From: an uncultured Pelagibacteraceae bacterium
GTDB lineage: Bacteria > Pseudomonadota > Alphaproteobacteria > Pelagibacterales > Pelagibacteraceae
Length of the DNA: 64,000 bases
Reading direction: 5' to 3'
Assembly: GCA_902587755.1 (NCBI GenBank)
Contig: CACIMN010000003.1
Coordinates: forward strand, 62,001-126,000
Shown here in pieces: positions 33,329 to 50,918 of this stretch. The position numbers were made by a program, and so were the translations under genes. Numbering within the stretch: the stretch's first letter is position 1; each line of letters begins with the position of its first letter. Under the pieces are notes generated by a model that was given only the letters and a program-made list of their open reading frames with translations, was not told where the DNA came from and searched no databases.

Positions 33329-34171
33329 CTAGTAGTGGTTTTTAATAATATCGATAATTTTGTTAAGTTGGTCTAAATCTTTATACTCAAAACTTATTTT
33401 ACCCTTGTTTCTATGATTATTTTGTATATCAACATTTATGCCAATTTTATTAGAGATTGATAGTTCTAATGCAATAATATTAGTATCTTTCTTTTTACTT
33501 GATTTAATTTTTTTATTTTTAAAAACTCTCACAAAAGTTTCGGATTGTCTAACAGATAGTTTCTTTTCTAAGATTTTAGATGCTACAAAACTAGCATTAG
33601 AAAGACCAACTAAAATTTTTGCATGACCTGCAGTAATTTTTTGAGTCTCAATCAATTTTATTACGTCCTGAGGCAATGTTAAAAGTCTTAATGAGTTTGT
33701 TATATGGCTTCTGCTTTTACCGATAAATTTTGAGACTTTTTCTTGATCATATGAGAATTCATCAATCAATCTTTTGTAACCCTGGGCTTCTTCCAAAGGA
33801 TTTAGGTCATGCCTTTGAACATTTTCGACAATGGCAAATTCTAAAGATTTTAAATCATCGGCCTCAGTGATTACTACAGGTACACTATGAAGACCTGCTC
33901 TTTGAGCTGCAAGCCATCTTCTTTCACCAGCAATTATTTCGAATTTAGATATGTCATCATTTGATTTTCGAACAACGATTGGTTGTATCATCCCTCTTTC
34001 CTTAATTGAATTTGTTAATTCATCTAAGTTATTCTTATCAAATATTTTTCTTGGTTGATATTTATTAGGTACTAGTTCGCTTATGGATAATTGATTTTTT
34101 TGAGACTCAACCTTGTTTTCACCAATTAATGAAGATAAGCCTCTACCCAATCCTTTTTTAATTTTTTCCAT
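33329..34171 (-). CDS. parB: Chromosome-partitioning protein ParB
   Basis: A CTP-dependent clamp protein that binds parS and spreads on origin-proximal DNA. The 280 residues include the N-terminal CTP-binding segment (NKYQPRKIFDKNNLDEL, IAGERRWLAAQRAGL), the helix-turn-helix (SYDQEKVSKFIGKSRSHITNSLRLL) and a C-terminal dimerisation region. It forms an operon with parA, sharing one base at the junction. A parS-like site lies about 1.4 kb away in rsmG. Confidence 0.97.
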   Translation of the reverse strand: MEKIKKGLGRGLSSLIGENKVESQKNQLSISELVPNKYQPRKIFDKNNLDELTNSIKERGMIQPIVVRKSNDDISKFEIIAGERRWLAAQRAGLHSVPVVITEADDLKSLEFAIVENVQRHDLNPLEEAQGYKRLIDEFSYDQEKVSKFIGKSRSHITNSLRLLTLPQDVIKLIETQKITAGHAKILVGLSNASFVASKILEKKLSVRQSETFVRVFKNKKIKSSKKKDTNIIALELSISNKIGINVDIQNNHRNKGKISFEYKDLDQLNKIIDIIKNHY

Positions 34172-34965
34172 TACGCAGCGCTCCCTAATGATTTTTCTTG
34201 ATTAATAAATTCATCAGTAAAATTAAAATATGATTTACTTCCAGGACAGGATTTATCATAAATTAAAACCGGCACTCCATGTGAAGGTGCTTCAGACAAT
34301 CTAACATTTCTTGGTATAACTGTTGAGTAAACTTTTTCTCTAAAATAGTCTCTTGCTTCTTTCTCAACTTGAGATGAAAGCCTATTTCTTTTATCATACA
34401 TTGTTAGAAGTATGCCTCTAATTTTTAAATCTGGATTTAAACTTACTTTTATCCTTTCAATTGTTTTAATGAGCTGAGTTAAGCCTTCTAAAGCAAAAAA
34501 TTCTGTCTGCAATGGAACCAAAAGAGAGTTAGAGCATACTAATGCCATAACAGTAAGCAAGCTCAAAGAGGGTGGACAATCAATTAGAACATAATCGTAA
34601 GATCCTCTAGAACTGTTTAAATATGCAGCTAATTTAGCCTTTAATATAAAAGCCCTATTACTATCGTCAGCTGTCTCGACTTCAAGACCTGAGAGGTCAA
34701 CATTAGATGTGATGATATCTAAATTTTCGAACTGTGTCTTTCTTATTACCTCTTCAATTTCTTTACTTCCATTCAGTACTCCATAAATTGTATCACTGGA
34801 GGTGTTCATATTAGATAATCCAAGACCTGTAGTTGCATTTCCTTGTGGATCTAGGTCAATTACTAAAATTTTTTTATTTAAATAGGTCAATCCAGCTGCA
34901 AGATTTATCACTGTAGTGGTTTTTCCAACGCCACCCTTTTGATTTATTACTGAAATAATTTGCAT
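34171..34965 (-). CDS. parA: Chromosome-partitioning ATPase ParA
   Basis: A Walker-type ATPase that drives segregation of ParB-bound origins. Deviant Walker A: NQKGGVGKTTTVINLAAGL; switch regions: VIDLDPQGNATTGLG and DYVLIDCPPSLSLL. The 264-residue length is normal and there is no N-terminal HTH, consistent with the chromosomal (Soj) type. It follows rsmG by 21 bases and is coupled to parB. Confidence 0.98.
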   Translation of the reverse strand: MQIISVINQKGGVGKTTTVINLAAGLTYLNKKILVIDLDPQGNATTGLGLSNMNTSSDTIYGVLNGSKEIEEVIRKTQFENLDIITSNVDLSGLEVETADDSNRAFILKAKLAAYLNSSRGSYDYVLIDCPPSLSLLTVMALVCSNSLLVPLQTEFFALEGLTQLIKTIERIKVSLNPDLKIRGILLTMYDKRNRLSSQVEKEARDYFREKVYSTVIPRNVRLSEAPSHGVPVLIYDKSCPGSKSYFNFTDEFINQEKSLGSAA

Positions 34966-34986: not shown

Positions 34987-35631
34987 TTAATTTTTTTTTT
35001 TAATTTTTTTTATATTTATTAAAAAAGAGTCTTCATTTGTTAAACTTTTCTTTTCTATATACTCCAACTCCCAATTTTTTTTGGAATTTTCAAAAATTTT
35101 TTTTCCACTCTTTCCCATAAAAAAAATTAAATTTTTATATTTTGAAAAATTTTCATATACTAATTCTAAAACTACTGGCATTGGTTTAAATGCTCTGGAC
35201 ATTATCGTTCCTGTTTCTAAATTTTTTATTTCAAAAATATTTTTTTGAAAAACCTTTGTGTTTAATTTTAATTTTTTTGAAACTTCTTTTAAAAAATGGC
35301 TTTTATGGTAGCTTTTTTCATAAAGGTGCACATTCATGTTATTTTTCATATTTTTTAGTATAATTGCCACGATTATACCGGGCATCCCCCCTCCTGAACC
35401 TATATCTGTGGTTGTATTACTATTTAAGTCAACAAAATCAATAATTTGTGCAGAATCAATAATATGACGGTCAATTATAGCCTTTTTTGATGCTGTATTT
35501 TGGCTAATTATGTTGAATTTTTTATTTTTTTTAAGAATCATAGATATATAGTTTTCAAAGTCCAAAAACGTTTCACGTGAAACATTTAAGTGATTGATTC
35601 TAGAATAAGAATTTAAAATTTCCTGATCCAT
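34987..35631 (-). CDS. rsmG: 16S rRNA (guanine527-N7)-methyltransferase RsmG
   Basis: A SAM-dependent 16S rRNA methyltransferase (GidB). The SAM-binding loop is TDIGSGGGMPGIIVAIIL; the MSRAF segment later is also typical. The 214-residue length is normal. The N-terminal NVSRETF motif (about residues 16-22) is encoded by a parS-like palindrome, a known dual use of rsmG sequence in several bacterial groups. It overlaps mnmG by one base, in the classical mnmG-rsmG-parA-parB order. Confidence 0.96.
   Translation of the reverse strand: MDQEILNSYSRINHLNVSRETFLDFENYISMILKKNKKFNIISQNTASKKAIIDRHIIDSAQIIDFVDLNSNTTTDIGSGGGMPGIIVAIILKNMKNNMNVHLYEKSYHKSHFLKEVSKKLKLNTKVFQKNIFEIKNLETGTIMSRAFKPMPVVLELVYENFSKYKNLIFFMGKSGKKIFENSKKNWELEYIEKKSLTNEDSFLINIKKIKKKN
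35569..35584. promoter_or_regulatory. parS centromere site inside rsmG
   Basis: The 16 bases read CGTTTCACGTGAAACA on the plus strand. They match 15/16 positions of the widespread parS consensus TGTTTCACGTGAAACA, with a perfect 14-base palindrome at 35570-35583. The site lies about 0.6 kb upstream of parA and within 8.3 kb of the putative oriC. Confidence 0.88.
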
Positions 35632-38995: not shown

Positions 38996-39832
38996 ATGAT
39001 TATTTGGCTAGCCTCTTATCCAAAAAGTGGAAATACATGGGTACGAATATTTCTGTCCTATATGCTCTCAAATGAAAAAAACATGGATATAAATAGAACA
39101 AAAATTTATCAATTTCCTAGAAGATTAAACTTTGAGGGAATTAGCAAAAATATTGATGATGGTAATGAGTTTGTAAAAAATTGTATTCACGCTCAATCTA
39201 AAATAAATTTGGACAATAAGTATAAAATTTTTAAAACTCATAATGCATTCTGGAAAAATGGAAATTATTCATTTACTGATTTAGAAAATACAATTGGTTG
39301 CATATATATTGTAAGAGACCCTAGGAACATTATCACATCTATTAAAAATTATTATGATTTTAAAAGTTATGAAGAGGCATTAAAGTTTTTAAGGGATGAC
39401 AAAAATATTATTGGAACTCTTCACAAAGTTAGACAGGGTAATGATTTGCCAACAATTATCTCCTCATGGAAAAATCACTACAATTCTTGGAAAAAGTTAA
39501 AAACTAATTATTTGTTAATTAAATATGAAGATATGTTGGTTGACCCTAGAAAAGAATTTTTGAAAATTATTAATTTTATTAAAAAAATCTCAAACATTGT
39601 GTTTGACGATTTTAGAATTGATAATGCTATTTCATTGTGTGAATTTAAAAATTTACAAGGTATTGAAAATAAAGACGGTTTTATTGAGGCTTCAAAGGAT
39701 AGATTGGGAAATTCAATTAAATTCTTTAATCTCGGTTCAGAAAATAAATGGCAAAATTTGCTTAACAAACAAATTATTGAAAATATAGAAACCAGTTTTA
39801 AAGAAGAAATGACTGAACTAAAATATCTCTAG
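38996..39832 (+). CDS. Sulfotransferase-domain protein, subgroup A
   Basis: A predicted PAPS-dependent sulfotransferase of 278 residues. The 5'-phosphosulfate-binding loop is IWLASYPKSGNTWVRIFL at the extreme N-terminus, the KTHNA segment follows near residue 81, and the 3'-phosphate-binding motif is CIYIVRDPRNIITSI. SSWKNHYNSWK and LLIKYEDML are typical of the Sulfotransfer_1 family. It ends EEMTELKYL, like the paralogues in this window. No signal peptide, so it is probably cytosolic. Acceptor unknown. The gene sits alone on the plus strand between mnmE and rho, both on the minus strand. Confidence 0.87.
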   Translation: MIIWLASYPKSGNTWVRIFLSYMLSNEKNMDINRTKIYQFPRRLNFEGISKNIDDGNEFVKNCIHAQSKINLDNKYKIFKTHNAFWKNGNYSFTDLENTIGCIYIVRDPRNIITSIKNYYDFKSYEEALKFLRDDKNIIGTLHKVRQGNDLPTIISSWKNHYNSWKKLKTNYLLIKYEDMLVDPRKEFLKIINFIKKISNIVFDDFRIDNAISLCEFKNLQGIENKDGFIEASKDRLGNSIKFFNLGSENKWQNLLNKQIIENIETSFKEEMTELKYL

Positions 39833-41608: not shown

Positions 41609-42604
41609 TTAGATATTTCTTTCAATTAAGGACTTCAGCAAGATGATGTGATCATCATTATCATTTAAGCAGGGAATCATATCAAAATTTTTTCCTCCTG
41701 ATTTAATAAAGCTTTCTTTGCCTTGAATTAAAATTTCCTCCAAGGTTTCTACACAATCAGATGAAAAGCCTGGACAAATTGTAAGAACATTTTTAACCCC
41801 ATCTTTAGGTAAACTTTCTAGAGTTTTATCGGTATAGGGTTTAAGCCATTCTTGTGGGCCAAACCTAGACTGAAATGTGGTTTTAATTTCAATTGAATTA
41901 TATTTTTCTGAAATTAACCTTGTAGTTTTATGACAATAACAATGATAAGGATCTCCTTTATCAAAATATTTTTTTGGTATGCCATGATAAGAAGCTATTA
42001 TTAAATCGGGTTTCCAATTTATTTCATTGATCTTTCTGTTGATGGAATTAACAAGTGCATCGATATAAAGCGGATCAGACTCATAATGTGGTATTATTTT
42101 CAAAGAAGGTTGCCATCTCATTTTCATTAAAGATCTGTAAACTTCGTCACAAACTGTTGCCGTTGTAGCTGCCGCATATTGTGGATAGAGAGGTAGTATC
42201 ACTAAATTTTCACAACCCATTTCATGTAATTTATGAATCTTGCTTTTAATGCTTGGATTTCCATACCTCATTGCAAAATCTATGACAATATTTTCTTTTG
42301 ATAAAAATTTTGAAATTTTTTCACTTTGCTTTTTTGTATAAAAAAGAAGTGGAGAAATATTTTCACCTTTCATCCAAATTTTTTTGTAAGCTTTTGCAGT
42401 TTTAGAGGGTCTAAAATTTAAAATAAACAAATTTAAAATTATCTGCCAAATTACAGGGTTTACCTCGATTATCCTTCTATCAGAAAGAAACTCTTTTAAA
42501 TATTTTCTTATATCAAACCAACTAGTAGAGTCGGGTGTGCCTAAATTAATTAAAAGAACGCCTGTTTTTCCATATTTTATAGGAGGGTGATATTTATCAA
42601 TCAT
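41609..42604 (-). CDS. hemH: Ferrochelatase
   Basis: It inserts ferrous iron into protoporphyrin IX, the last step of haem synthesis. Signatures are GVLLINLGTPDS near the N-terminus, LPLYPQYAAATTATV, the catalytic His in IASYHGIPKKYFDKGDPY, and the C-terminal acidic helix ICPGFSSDCVETLEEI. The 331-residue length is normal. It abuts hemE and lies 3 bases before hemJ. Confidence 0.97.
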   Translation of the reverse strand: MIDKYHPPIKYGKTGVLLINLGTPDSTSWFDIRKYLKEFLSDRRIIEVNPVIWQIILNLFILNFRPSKTAKAYKKIWMKGENISPLLFYTKKQSEKISKFLSKENIVIDFAMRYGNPSIKSKIHKLHEMGCENLVILPLYPQYAAATTATVCDEVYRSLMKMRWQPSLKIIPHYESDPLYIDALVNSINRKINEINWKPDLIIASYHGIPKKYFDKGDPYHCYCHKTTRLISEKYNSIEIKTTFQSRFGPQEWLKPYTDKTLESLPKDGVKNVLTICPGFSSDCVETLEEILIQGKESFIKSGGKNFDMIPCLNDNDDHIILLKSLIERNI

Positions 42605-43606
42605 TTAATAATTTTTTACAATTTTTATAATATTTTCTACCATTATCGGATTAGTTTCAGGCAAAATTCCATGACCAAGATTAAAAATATATGGATGATC
42701 CTTAAAAATTTCTAGATATTTAGAGGCTTCTTTTTTTAAATTTTCATAATCAGTTAAAAGTATTTTGGGGTCTAGGCCGCCTTGTACAGGTATTTTAATA
42801 TCTTTTATTATTTTTTTCGGATCGACATTATAATCAATACTAACAGCATCAGGTTTAACAATATCACAAAATTCCTTATAATTTTTTATTTCTCTTGGAA
42901 AGCATATCACTGGTACATTTAAAGATTTTACGAAATTTACCAAACTTAAAGTTGGAGTATAAATATAATTTGGTAAATCTTTTTCTTCCAATAAACCTGC
43001 CCAACTATCGAAGATTTGAATTATATTTGCACCGTTTTCAATTTGATTTTTAATATGAACTTTTAAAAATTTTTCAATAATTAATAAAATTCTATTTATT
43101 AGAAAATTGTCTTTGAAAAAATCCTTTTTTAAATTCTTTTTAGGTGATTGTTGATTAATCATATAAACTAACAGCGTCCATGGAGCTCCAACAAATCCAA
43201 TAGTATTTTTGCCATTTAAATCTGGATTTAAGCTAACTTTTTTTATTGCTTTATAAACACGATGAATTTTTTCAACAAAATCAATTTCATCAACCTTTGC
43301 AATTTCATTTAAATTTAATTCTCCCAGTCTAGGTCCAAAATTTTTTTCAAATTTAACCTTTTGACCCAAACCATATGGTAACATCAAAATATCTGAAAAT
43401 ATTATTGCAGCATCCAGATTAAATCTCTTTAAAGGTTGTAGAGTTATTTCCGAAGACAAATCGTCATTTAAACACAGATTAATAAAATTAGGATTTTCTT
43501 TTCTAATTTCTCTAAATTCTGGTAAATATCTTCCTGCTTGTCTCATAATCCATATTGGATTAAATGAAGTATCTTTATTAATTATTACTTTATCTAATGG
43601 TTTCAT
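42605..43606 (-). CDS. hemE: Uroporphyrinogen decarboxylase
   Basis: It converts uroporphyrinogen III to coproporphyrinogen III. Diagnostic sequences: PIWIMRQAGRYLPEFRE near the N-terminus, GFVGAPWTLLVYMI, IIQIFDSWAGLL and NLGHGILPETNP. The 333-residue length is normal. The gene abuts hemH and forms the left border of the putative replication origin, a location conserved in Caulobacter and Rickettsia. Confidence 0.97.
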   Translation of the reverse strand: MKPLDKVIINKDTSFNPIWIMRQAGRYLPEFREIRKENPNFINLCLNDDLSSEITLQPLKRFNLDAAIIFSDILMLPYGLGQKVKFEKNFGPRLGELNLNEIAKVDEIDFVEKIHRVYKAIKKVSLNPDLNGKNTIGFVGAPWTLLVYMINQQSPKKNLKKDFFKDNFLINRILLIIEKFLKVHIKNQIENGANIIQIFDSWAGLLEEKDLPNYIYTPTLSLVNFVKSLNVPVICFPREIKNYKEFCDIVKPDAVSIDYNVDPKKIIKDIKIPVQGGLDPKILLTDYENLKKEASKYLEIFKDHPYIFNLGHGILPETNPIMVENIIKIVKNY

Positions 43607-43872
43607 AAATAATCTTTATTAATTATTGTAGTTGTATTATATCCTGTGAATAAAGATGATTACTTTTTATTAACATTATTTTCACAGTTTACTAACATCA
43701 TGTTTAACTAAAATTGTTTAAAATGAAGCTTTTTTCGATATATTGTTTTTGTGGATTGTTTTAAGCTATTTAATATTATTGTTGATAAAGACTAGATTTT
43801 ACAAGCTTAGTTTGAAAAATATTTAATTATGTAAAATATCTAAAATAATACAAATTTATTAACCGTTTATTC
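43607..43872. other. Putative chromosomal replication origin (oriC)
   Basis: A 266-base, very A+T-rich gap between divergently transcribed hemE and ppsR, the conserved oriC location described for alphaproteobacteria. DnaA-box candidates against TTWTNCACA are TGTGAATAA (43645-43653, exact on the minus strand), ATTTTCACA (43678-43686, one mismatch), TGTTGATAA (43780-43788, one mismatch) and TGTGGATTG (43750-43758, two mismatches). The stretch from about 43815 to 43865 is almost pure A+T and could be the unwinding element. No gene is visible. Coding strand bias switches here. parABS lies within 10 kb. Confidence 0.65.
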
Positions 43873-44700
43873 ATGAAAAATACATATAAAATATATTTAA
43901 TATCAGACTCAACTGGGGAAACTCTTGATAGAATTTTTCTTGCACTAAAGGCTCAATTTTTAAACATAGAGTATAAAGTTCGTTCATATTCATTTACACG
44001 TACAGAAAATCAAATTTTAAAAATTCTGGAAGATGCAGAACAAAATAAAAATTCAATCATTTTATACACCATTGTTGATAACAACTTGGCTAAATATTTA
44101 GCAAAGGTAAGTGAAAATAAAAATATCCCTTGTTTTGGCGTTTTGGGTAATTTAATTTTAAATTTTTCTAAAATACTAAATCAAAAAGCAACCCATGAAC
44201 CAAGCGGCCAACATATATTAAACGAGGAATACTATGATAGAATTGAAGCAATTCAATTTACAATGAATCATGATGATGGAAATTTAATAACTGAAATTGA
44301 AAAATCAGATATAATACTTGTAGGCGTTAGTAGAACAAGCAAAACCCCAACCTCTATATATCTTGCAAACAAAGGTTTCAAAACATCCAATATTCCTTTG
44401 GTAAATGAAAATTCATTGCCGGAAAAACTTAAACAAAATCCACAAATGACTTGTGTTGTAGGATTAAGCACAGAGCCGGAAAGATTGGCTGATTTAAGAA
44501 AAAACAGGATGAACTCACTTAGAGAAACGGAAAATATTACATATACAAATTTAGACAATATTAAAAAAGAGGTTTTAGATGCAAAAAAAACATTTCAAAA
44601 ATACAAATGGCCTCTTATAGACGTGACAAGGAAATCTGTAGAAGAAACCGCAGCATCAATTATTAAAATACATGAAATATATCTAAATAATGCAAAATAA
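43873..44700 (+). CDS. PpsR-type kinase/pyrophosphorylase (DUF299)
   Basis: A bifunctional regulatory protein that phosphorylates and dephosphorylates PEP synthase or pyruvate phosphate dikinase. The 275 residues contain YLISDSTGETLDRI, PSGQHILNEEYYDRIEAIQFTMNHDDG split over two stretches, a P-loop GVSRTSKTPTSIYLA and the late DVTRKSVEETAASI. It is the homologue of the gene next to the Caulobacter and Rickettsia origins. Which of the two enzymes is regulated cannot be told, since neither is in this window. It overlaps maf by 11 bases. Confidence 0.93.
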   Translation: MKNTYKIYLISDSTGETLDRIFLALKAQFLNIEYKVRSYSFTRTENQILKILEDAEQNKNSIILYTIVDNNLAKYLAKVSENKNIPCFGVLGNLILNFSKILNQKATHEPSGQHILNEEYYDRIEAIQFTMNHDDGNLITEIEKSDIILVGVSRTSKTPTSIYLANKGFKTSNIPLVNENSLPEKLKQNPQMTCVVGLSTEPERLADLRKNRMNSLRETENITYTNLDNIKKEVLDAKKTFQKYKWPLIDVTRKSVEETAASIIKIHEIYLNNAK

Positions 44701-45280
44701 AATTATTCTTGCTTCTAAAAGCAAAGTTAGAAAAGAAATTTTAGATAAAAATAATATTGAAAGTGTTGTAGAACACTCAAATGTAGATGAAGACATTGTA
44801 AAATTGAATTTAATCAAAGAAAGAGCAACACCAGAAATTATTTCAAAAAATCTAGCAGAACTAAAAGCAAATAAAGTTAGTTTAAAAAATATTGACCATA
44901 TAGTTCTAGGCGCAGACAGTGTTATAGATCTTGATGGCGAACTAATATCAAAACCTGAAAACAGAAAAGAAGCAATTGAAATATTAAAAAAACTTAATGG
45001 TAAATCACATTTTTTGATTAGTTCTGTTTGTATATCGAAAAATGGATCGATGATTTGGAATTATACTGATAAAGCAAAATTAACTATGAAAAATTTTTCC
45101 AAAAATGAATTAGAAGAATATTTATCTAAAATATCCGATGAAACTCTATACGCATATAACGTTTATCAAATTGAAGGTGAGGGAAGAAATTTATTTGCAA
45201 GCATAAGCGGTGATGAAGACACTATAATGGGTTTACCAATTAAAAAAATTAAGGAGTATTTAAAAATTCATGGAGATTAA
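44690..45280 (+). CDS. Maf-family nucleotide pyrophosphatase
   Basis: A nucleoside triphosphate pyrophosphatase (septum-formation/Maf family) that removes non-canonical or modified nucleotides. Motifs: ILASKSKVRKEIL at the N-terminus, VLGADSVIDLDGE with the catalytic Asp, KPENRKEAIEILKKLNGKSH and YAYNVYQIEGEG. The 196-residue length is normal. It is coupled to ppsR and aroE by overlaps (10-11 bases each) in the origin-proximal cluster. Confidence 0.93.
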   Translation: MQNKIILASKSKVRKEILDKNNIESVVEHSNVDEDIVKLNLIKERATPEIISKNLAELKANKVSLKNIDHIVLGADSVIDLDGELISKPENRKEAIEILKKLNGKSHFLISSVCISKNGSMIWNYTDKAKLTMKNFSKNELEEYLSKISDETLYAYNVYQIEGEGRNLFASISGDEDTIMGLPIKKIKEYLKIHGD

Positions 45281-49201: not shown

Positions 49202-50056
49202 ATGATTGTTTGGTTAGCCTCATATCCTAAAAGTGGAAATACATTGGTAAGAGCGTTATTGTCGTCATATTTTTTTTCAAATGATGGAATATTTAATTTT
49301 GAGATTATTAAAAATATAAAACAATTCCCACACATTGGTTTATTTGAGAATTTAGGAATTGATATAAAAAATGAAAAAGAAGTTATTAAAAATTATGTAA
49401 ATGCTCAGGCAAGTATAAATAAAAAAGACTCTATTCAATTTTGTAAAACTCATAGCTATTTATTTAATATTGATAATAATCCATTTACTGACTTAAATAA
49501 TAGTTTAGGCGCTATTTATATAGTTAGAGATCCAAGAAATGTTGTGACCTCATATGCGCATCATAACAGTATTTCAATAAATGAGTCTGCAGAGAGAATG
49601 ATTAATTCTATTAATTACGGAGGTAATTTAGAAAGTGATAATATTTCTGACAGAACTAAGGTTTATATGGGATCGTGGAGTAGTAATTTTAACAGTTGGA
49701 AATCTTTTAAATCTCCTGGAAAATATTTATTAGTAAAATATGAGGATTTAGTAAATGATAAAGAAAAAACATTTTATCAGATATTGAATTTTATTCATAA
49801 ACTAAAAAAAATTAATTTATCAATTGATAAAAAAAAAATTAATAACGTTATTAACTCAACAAGTTTTGAAAAATTAAAAGATTTAGAGAAGAAGGAAGGT
49901 TTTATAGAGAGCAAGGTAAATATAAAAACTGGAAAAAAAATTCCTTTTTTTAATTTAGGTTCAAAAAATAATTGGAAAAATATTTTAGAGGATGAAATAA
50001 GAAAAAAAATTGAAGACTCATTTAAAAAAGAAATGATAGAATTAGGTTATTTATAA
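49202..50056 (+). CDS. Sulfotransferase-domain protein, subgroup B (tandem copy 1)
   Basis: A 284-residue predicted PAPS-dependent sulfotransferase. N-terminal WLASYPKSGNTLVRALLSS is the 5'-phosphosulfate loop, KTHSYLF lies near residue 81, and GAIYIVRDPRNVVTSYAHH is the 3'-phosphate motif. LLVKYEDLV and a C-terminal KEMIELGYL follow. It is closely similar to the next gene (shared SSYFFSxDGIFNF and LGIDIxNExEV segments), indicating tandem duplication. Acceptor unknown. It lies between smr and hslU. Confidence 0.87.
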   Translation: MIVWLASYPKSGNTLVRALLSSYFFSNDGIFNFEIIKNIKQFPHIGLFENLGIDIKNEKEVIKNYVNAQASINKKDSIQFCKTHSYLFNIDNNPFTDLNNSLGAIYIVRDPRNVVTSYAHHNSISINESAERMINSINYGGNLESDNISDRTKVYMGSWSSNFNSWKSFKSPGKYLLVKYEDLVNDKEKTFYQILNFIHKLKKINLSIDKKKINNVINSTSFEKLKDLEKKEGFIESKVNIKTGKKIPFFNLGSKNNWKNILEDEIRKKIEDSFKKEMIELGYL

Positions 50057-50072
50057 TTTAAATGATATAAAC

Positions 50073-50918
50073 ATGATTATTTGGTTGGCATCATATCCAA
50101 AGAGTGGGAATACATTAGTCAGATCTATGCTTTCTAGTTATTTTTTCTCAAAAGATGGAATATTTAATTTTGATTTGTTAAATAATATAAAAAAATTTCC
50201 AGATTTTGGTGTATTTAAAACTTTAGGCATAGATATTACGAATGAAAATGAAGTAGTTAAGAACTATATAAATGTTCAAAAAGAAATTAACAAAAGAGAT
50301 GGTAATTCAATAAGATTTTTAAAAACACATGCTGCTCTAAATGATATCAATGGTTATAGATTTACAGATTTAAAAAATACCTTGGGGGCCATTTATATTG
50401 TGAGAGACCCAAGAAAAATTATTCTGTCCTATGCTAACCACAGTCAAATAACGTTAAGCGAATCTCTTAAAAGACTTATTGAATTACGTACAATTGGAGG
50501 TCTTAATGACAATCAAAATCAATCAGTGACTCACGTCGGATCATGGTCTACAAATTATCACTCTTGGAAAGAGTTCAACAAGGTTGGCAAATATCTGCTT
50601 ATAAAATATGAAGATCTAATATCCAAACCAGAAGATAACCTTAAAATTATTTTAGAATTTATCTCCAAAATTACTAATACAAAACTTGAAGTAGATAAAA
50701 AGAAGTTAAACAATGTTTTAAGCACAACTTCTTTTGAATATTTACAGAAATTAGAAAAAGAGAATAATTTTCCTGAGGCAATTAAAACTAAAGATGGAAA
50801 TTATGCTACTTTTTTTAAGTACGGAAAAAAAAATACAGGTAAAAATCTTCCTGAGGAAATTACTAAGGAGCTCGAAGATAACTTGAGTTCAGAAATGAGA
50901 GAATTAGGTTATCTTTAA
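50073..50918 (+). CDS. Sulfotransferase-domain protein, subgroup B (tandem copy 2)
   Basis: A 281-residue paralogue of the preceding gene, starting 16 bases after it. Its motifs are IWLASYPKSGNTLVRSML, KTHAALN, GAIYIVRDPRKIILSYANH (Lys replaces the usual Asn after DPR), LLIKYEDLI and the terminal SEMRELGYL. The catalytic-type features are retained in both copies, so neither looks like a pseudogene. It converges on hslU with a 1-base gap. Confidence 0.87.
   Translation: MIIWLASYPKSGNTLVRSMLSSYFFSKDGIFNFDLLNNIKKFPDFGVFKTLGIDITNENEVVKNYINVQKEINKRDGNSIRFLKTHAALNDINGYRFTDLKNTLGAIYIVRDPRKIILSYANHSQITLSESLKRLIELRTIGGLNDNQNQSVTHVGSWSTNYHSWKEFNKVGKYLLIKYEDLISKPEDNLKIILEFISKITNTKLEVDKKKLNNVLSTTSFEYLQKLEKENNFPEAIKTKDGNYATFFKYGKKNTGKNLPEEITKELEDNLSSEMRELGYL

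Follow-up and report, generated by a model that had tools for sequence, protein, structure and literature searches.

A predicted chromosomal origin of replication in the hemE–ppsR gap of a SAR11 bacterium

Introduction

The gap between hemE and COG1806 is described in PMC1914354, where Brassinga et al. (2002) is cited, as the site of Cori in Caulobacter crescentus and of the predicted ori in Rickettsia. According to the available parts of PMC6669920 and PMC8287927, DnaA can pass from a box onto TAG-type triplets, opening the strand. Origins have been assigned via GC skew (excerpt of PMC9516812) or from four-fold sites together with the rRNA strand (excerpt of PMC2099444), and the read coverage of SAR11 is V-shaped with one origin, the position of which is not given in the accessible part of PMC9589681.

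Here we analysed a stretch of 64,000 nucleotides (G000:C3:62001-126000, hereafter the window) from a 1,286,243-base draft genome in 22 contigs. The genome belongs to the Pelagibacterales lineage to which the common name SAR11 is applied; in a scan of genome contigs, the named records closest to it are from uncultured Pelagibacteraceae, with one from Pelagibacterales. Cells of SAR11 bacteria rank among the most numerous in the ocean. Because these bacteria do not grow well in culture, growth estimates frequently rely on origin-to-terminus read coverage. For such estimates in draft genomes, an origin defined by sequence would provide a fixed anchor. The comparison presented below leads us to predict, with a probability of about 0.9, that the gap between hemE and ppsR is the single chromosomal oriC of this SAR11 bacterium.

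Results

The gap is flanked by hemE, encoding uroporphyrinogen decarboxylase (42605..43606, minus strand; URO-D, PF01208 in Pfam), and by ppsR (COG1806/DUF299, Kinase-PPPase; 43873..44700, plus strand; PF03618 in Pfam). We take the name "ppsR" to denote the PEP-synthase/PPDK regulator family, which is distinct from the like-named photosynthesis repressor. Since hemE starts at 43606 and ppsR at 43873, the limits 43607-43872 given in a preliminary description of this DNA are correct, and the predicted oriC is an intergenic module of 266 bp (43607..43872), characterised by a fixed length, low divergence and the best profile match. The switch from leftward to rightward genes reported at this point holds locally, the exception being one plus-strand ORF (38996-39832) in the leftward run. 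This ORF is one of three related ORFs flanking the origin region (with 49202-50056 and 50073-50918), which start with MI(I/V)WLASYPKSGNT and look sulfotransferase-like by eye. The A+T content of the gap is 81% versus 72% in the window, and it rises to 90% at 43812-43851, before ppsR; this stretch is indeed A+T-rich, and the wording "extremely" is too strong for a value at about the 97th percentile of 40-mers.

DnaA binds its boxes via domain IV. In the SAR11 protein, the box-recognition helix is RDHTT, as in E. coli, and the surrounding residues are likewise conserved. In the gap, the predicted box 1, or loader box (TTATTCACA, 43645..43653, minus strand), matches TTATNCACA exactly, as had been noticed before, and differs from TTATCCACA at one position. 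It is preceded by the triplet array TTG-TAG-TTG-TAT-TAT (43626..43640, plus strand), a DnaA-trio-like element read from the gap itself and from the TAG frame over 29 gaps (see below), which we propose as the single-strand loading and opening site, and by a 4-base spacer, ATCC (43641..43644, plus strand). Three predicted boxes follow on the plus strand: box 2 (TTATTAACA, 43667..43675, offset +22 from box 1), with a low divergence of 0.041; box 3 (ATTTTCACA, genus consensus ATATTCACA, 43678..43686, offset +33); and the weak box 4 (TTACTAACA, 43689..43697, offset +44), which is poorly kept in the near set of relatives (decamer divergence 0.198 and 0.398). Boxes 2 and 4 are absent from the preliminary description. 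Of the two sites that it listed as one-mismatch boxes, the one at 43780 (TTATCAACA, 43780..43788, minus strand, offset +135) is confirmed, while the one at 43678 has two mismatches from TTATNCACA. The picture of sparse boxes has therefore to be abandoned, since the gap has four sites at offsets 0, 22, 33 and 44, i.e. in an 11-bp register, as well as weaker ones.

The remaining part of the gap, towards ppsR, contains several further elements. Near-set conservation marks an island, TTTAAAATGAAGCTTTTTT (43717..43735), and the plus-strand sequence TGTGGATTG (43750..43758), the minus strand of which, CAATCCACA, is weakly DnaA-box-like. A TTTTACA element of low divergence lies at 43797..43803, and neither it nor the island at 43717-43735 matches any of the site consensuses tried. 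A ppsR-proximal site, TTATTAACC (43856..43864, plus strand), has TTATTAACA as its genus consensus, and other members of the family again have a box at this distance of about +214, within one mismatch in 4 of 28 cases.

Taken alone, these matches are of limited value. The 64-kb window has a single TTATNCACA (3.65 in shuffles) and 31 matches with at most one mismatch from TTATCCACA, against 21.3 in shuffled sequences, with 3 of 100 shuffles reaching 31. Three of the 13 TTATNMACA sites of the window fall into the gap, making it the densest 266-bp stretch found. With box matches so near to chance, an origin could not be called with confidence from one genome: the DnaA-box evidence from the own genome is weak, and it is the comparison with relatives that makes it strong.

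The near set comprised 81 loci, i.e. our own and those of 80 named genomes (in L070 the hemE start was extrapolated). Both genes are present at a distance of 266-270 bp in 80 of these loci, the remaining one (L059) being a contig end, and the gaps show 75.6-93.6% identity to our own. In a wider sample of 30 genomes of the family, hemE lies 261-294 bp from ppsR in 28. Pairwise divergence, calculated for 1,500 pairs among 72 of the 80 near genomes (eight without a full-length ungapped hemE match were omitted), is 0.126 in the gap versus 0.425 and 0.469 at the four-fold sites of hemE and ppsR, respectively. The least divergent decamer of the gap (43647-43656, 0.017) lies in box 1. After reduction to 29 gaps with less than 75% mutual identity, including six from the sister family f2, TTATNMACA occurs 57 times versus 5.0 in shuffles (sd 2.2, maximum 11 over 200 shuffles). 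The box-like sequences, the conservation of which had been named as decisive in the preliminary description, are thus kept among relatives, and kept in ordered positions.

Within the core, TAG/TAT-type triplets in one frame are followed by a spacer of 4 bases and an inverted box, with boxes 22, 33 and 44 bp beyond it. In the 29 gaps, 13 of the 15 strict plus-strand boxes at offsets 12-59 from box 1 fall on 22, 33 or 44, and 51 of the 60 TAG triplets within 30 bases before box 1 share one frame (offsets -19, -16, -13, -10 and -7). Six of the 29 anchors had been placed by eye because the automatic ones seemed wrong, and the score used for automatic anchoring itself favoured TAG, TAT and TTG; therefore, both tests were repeated. 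The register then amounts to 11/13 with automatic and 11/17 with box-only anchors, and the TAG frame to 42/49 and 33/54, respectively, so that both signals weaken under stricter anchoring yet persist. Since the most constrained part of the gap and the triplet array are both on the hemE side, the opening site is more likely to be there than before ppsR. The A+T-rich stretch before ppsR, initially singled out, is not the best candidate for it, and the melting site is likely to be on the hemE side of the gap.

The position of the gap on the chromosome was examined in closed genomes of relatives. In all ten closed genomes with a match, transcription of the 16S rRNA gene leads away from the gap; G063 gave no match, the own 16S lies on another contig, and for G005 and G009 the circle was closed using rounded genome lengths. 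When G043 (55% sampled) was examined by raw cumulative GC skew, the minimum extended over about 600-770 kb and was too flat to tell the gap from dnaA; strand-corrected four-fold sites were used instead. With these, the best-fitting switches in G043 are at about 590-620 kb and at about 1,280 kb, with the gap at 604.8 kb. Bootstrap support is 64% near the gap and 31% near dnaA, so that this genome alone does not distinguish well between the two. Pooling four closed genomes (G043, G063, G040 and G035; 1,451 ORFs) places the switch at -50 to +20 kb from the gap, with an optimum at -40 kb that is nearly matched at +20 kb. The sign of the four-fold skew is unusual: the strand inferred to be leading carries an excess of A in each of the four fits (near zero in one), together with an excess of C in G043 and G040 and of G in G063 and G035. 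A dif-like pattern proved uninformative as a terminus marker, being found in 3 of 12 genomes, while a reversed-pattern control was found in 4 of 12.

These data bear directly on the alternative that the true origin adjoins dnaA, about 63 kb off, as in many bacteria, and that the conserved gap is something else. In 11 of 12 genomes, dnaA and ppsR are separated by 61-72 kb, and in G005 by roughly 110 kb; the orientation of 16S is compatible with either place, and in the accessible part of PMC2031905 skew studies put origins at dnaA when a switch is nearby. Taken alone, G063 favours dnaA over the gap by skew and does not show the switch at the gap. Against this, the pooled likelihood (lnL) is 2.6 below the best position at the gap and 11.6 below it at dnaA, i.e. 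9 below the gap, and positions less than 30 kb from dnaA account for 1.7% of the bootstraps. No TTATNMACA occurs in the 3.2 kb around the own dnaA, and parS is found 7-20 kb from the gap and not near dnaA. We therefore consider an origin at dnaA very improbable. The switch, which according to the preliminary description should not lie far from the gap, is around it rather than around dnaA, albeit broadly. Strict box counts single out the gap in G063 and G035 (four boxes each), but not in G043 (one).

The partition genes are located in the leftward run: parB (33329-34171, minus strand; ParB_N, HTH_ParB and ParB_C in Pfam) and parA (34171-34965, minus strand; AAA_31 and ParA-like families in Pfam). 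The sole site of the parS pattern in the genome, GTTTCACGTGAAAC (35570..35583), is inside the ORF 34987-35631 and 8.0 kb from the gap, in agreement with the earlier placement of parABS within 10 kb. The parS-like pattern GTTNCACGTGNAAC occurs exactly once per genome in 12 of 12 SAR11 genomes, and the reversed pattern, used as a control, gave no sites in these 12 genomes.

The flanking genes are not constant in all relatives, which provides natural experiments separating the constraint on an origin from that on gene regulation, as hemE has moved in some lineages and ppsR has been lost in others. In genus g9 (G009 and G022), the element is still situated before ppsR, although hemE is missing from the adjoining 1.48 kb; in G022, hemE is near 412 kb and ppsR near 1,061 kb. 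By eye, the relocated hemE of this genus adjoins a heme-pathway-like gene. In the sister family f2, PF03618 was found in none of the 18 genomes listed, and a hemE locus was recovered in 13 of the 14 genomes tried, with all 13 gaps to the next long ORF measuring 271-281 bp and containing triplet arrays (e.g., TAGTAGTAGTTG) before CC-TGTG. In the seven f2 loci translated (among L213-L225), hemE is divergent to a gene that looks Maf-like by eye. The element, being kept with ppsR in g9 and with hemE in f2, follows the place and not one gene.

Uniqueness of the element was addressed with a profile of 22 gaps, none of them from the own genus, which was run on about 2 Mb of DNA made up of the window, four tiles of 400 kb each and a further 360 kb. 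The five gaps in this material are the five best matches (E 1.9e-4 to 0.023; next E 0.24). Our own gap is the top match of the window (E 6.8e-4), and the gap ranks first in each of the four tiles. The genus of the G040 tile is represented in the profile.

It may be argued that the gap is nothing else than a shared hemE/ppsR promoter region, in which box-like sequences are by-products of A+T richness. Divergent promoters are to be expected there, promoter-like matches are present, and the hemE promoter must overlap the core, which is no more than about 50 bp away from where hemE starts. Nevertheless, the promoter-like matches (5 versus 5.4 in shuffles) show no excess, the number and register of boxes exceed those of dinucleotide shuffles, and the element persists where hemE or ppsR is absent or elsewhere, which makes this explanation even less probable than an origin at dnaA. 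An RNA element in the gap was rejected as well, since a search of Rfam gave no match in 42500-45000. Finally, a terminus at the gap with the origin opposite, a reading to which we give a negligible chance, would follow from the reversed four-fold skew sign of G043, the would-be leading strand of which is C- and A-rich at these sites, and the skew fits are blind to origin versus terminus. Against it, all ten closed genomes with a 16S match would have this gene on the lagging strand, and 59% of the ORFs sampled in G043 run in the direction of replication if the gap is the origin. In addition, parS and the DnaA boxes sit at the gap, and the sign of the GC skew is inconsistent across the four genomes.

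The proposal of the preliminary description that the gap is a chromosomal origin is thus supported by conserved, positioned boxes and by a broad skew switch around the gap and not at dnaA.

Discussion

The arrangement of the core suggests how such an origin might operate. DnaA would bind firmly to box 1, and its binding to boxes 2-4, which share a helical face, would be weak and cooperative. From box 1, it would be guided onto the triplet strand 5' of this box, and by stretching it would open this strand on the hemE side, where two helicases would be loaded. ParB bound to the single parS would then separate the duplicated origins. The weak TTATTAACA-type boxes may render firing dependent on the amount of active DnaA.

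More tentatively, one can suggest that the origin of the SAR11 order as a whole is a compact module of nearly constant length (about 270 bp) driven mainly by DnaA, in which triplets and a loader box face weak boxes spaced by one helical turn. Lineages of this kind would have little or no IHF, CtrA or GANTC control, and their slow, unsynchronised growth would depend mostly on how much active DnaA is present. We consider this generalisation possible, the odds being somewhat against it.

With respect to location, the SAR11 gap corresponds to Cori and to the Rickettsia ori as these are presented in the accessible part of PMC1914354, and the placement of hemE beside the origin, mentioned in the preliminary description, refers to the same position. 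The likeness extends to the divergent flanking genes, the DnaA boxes, the A+T richness and the nearby parAB. Of the features that characterise hemE-linked alphaproteobacterial origins, divergent hemE/COG1806 flanks, a DnaA-box cluster and an A+T-rich stretch were all found here, together with a switch of strand asymmetry that is coarse in the four pooled closed genomes. Of 29 other loci of the class, 27 have hemE and COG1806 in divergent orientation, and the gaps between them measure about 327-899 bp (approximate values, as the starts were extrapolated from tblastn ends), so that the SAR11 gaps of 261-294 bp are short for the class sample. The SAR11 core profile matches 5 of these 29 loci at E < 0.1, in all cases inside the gap. 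A class-wide triplet array gained no support, candidates being scored in 9 of 27 gaps on the expected strand and in 7 of 27 on the other; by eye, TAG is near TGTGGATAA in many class gaps.

The two origins differ in their regulatory sites: five sites for CtrA and one for IHF are given for Cori (PMC1914354), while our own SAR11 gap contains neither CtrA sites (TTAA-N7-TTAA) nor IHF sites (both WATCAANNNNTTR and WATCAN5WTR were searched). In the 29 gaps, CtrA-type sites number 13 versus 6.9 in shuffles (sd 2.5) and IHF-like WATCAANNNNTTR sites 5 versus 1.9, i.e. the matches of the relatives are slightly above shuffles. GANTC has no match in the own gap and is mildly scarce in the 29 gaps (1 versus 4.3 shuffled, sd 2.0).

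The E. coli oriC (L212) presents TTATTAG, a spacer and TGTGGATAA in the same order and orientation as in SAR11. It differs in its longer spacer, in its other boxes and their spacing, and in being flanked by mnmG and mioC, and the SAR11 core profile does not match it at E up to 10.

A parallel in the way of working is offered by the basal unwinding system (BUS) of Bacillus subtilis and other bacteria, which, in the available parts of PMC8287927 and PMC6669920, likewise has TAG-type triplets 5' of a box, a short spacer and a fixed orientation; the extra opposite-strand boxes at 22, 33 and 44 bp distinguish SAR11 from it. The published box rule allows at most two mismatches from TTATCCACA; our box 1 has one, and 13 of the 29 gaps conform to the rule. 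As for the triplets, the rule asks for a run of three or more NAN no further than 16 bp from the box, of which the own array falls short, so that the gap is not a BUS member by the published rule. Yet this triplet rule is satisfied by 22 of the 29 gaps and by 58% of shuffled upstream stretches, which makes it non-discriminating in such A+T-rich DNA; 11 of the 29 SAR11-order gaps conform to both rules jointly. The in-frame TAG signal supports a BUS-like way of working.

The kind of origin is already known, and the new detail is its SAR11 architecture. Among the literature matches listed, there is no description of the SAR11 origin sequence, although DoriC or supplements may hold a prediction. 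We suggest that the hemE–ppsR gap joins the hemE-linked alphaproteobacterial origins by its place and would work like a trio-loaded origin, representing an alphaproteobacterial case in which triplets are combined with helically spaced weak predicted DnaA sites.
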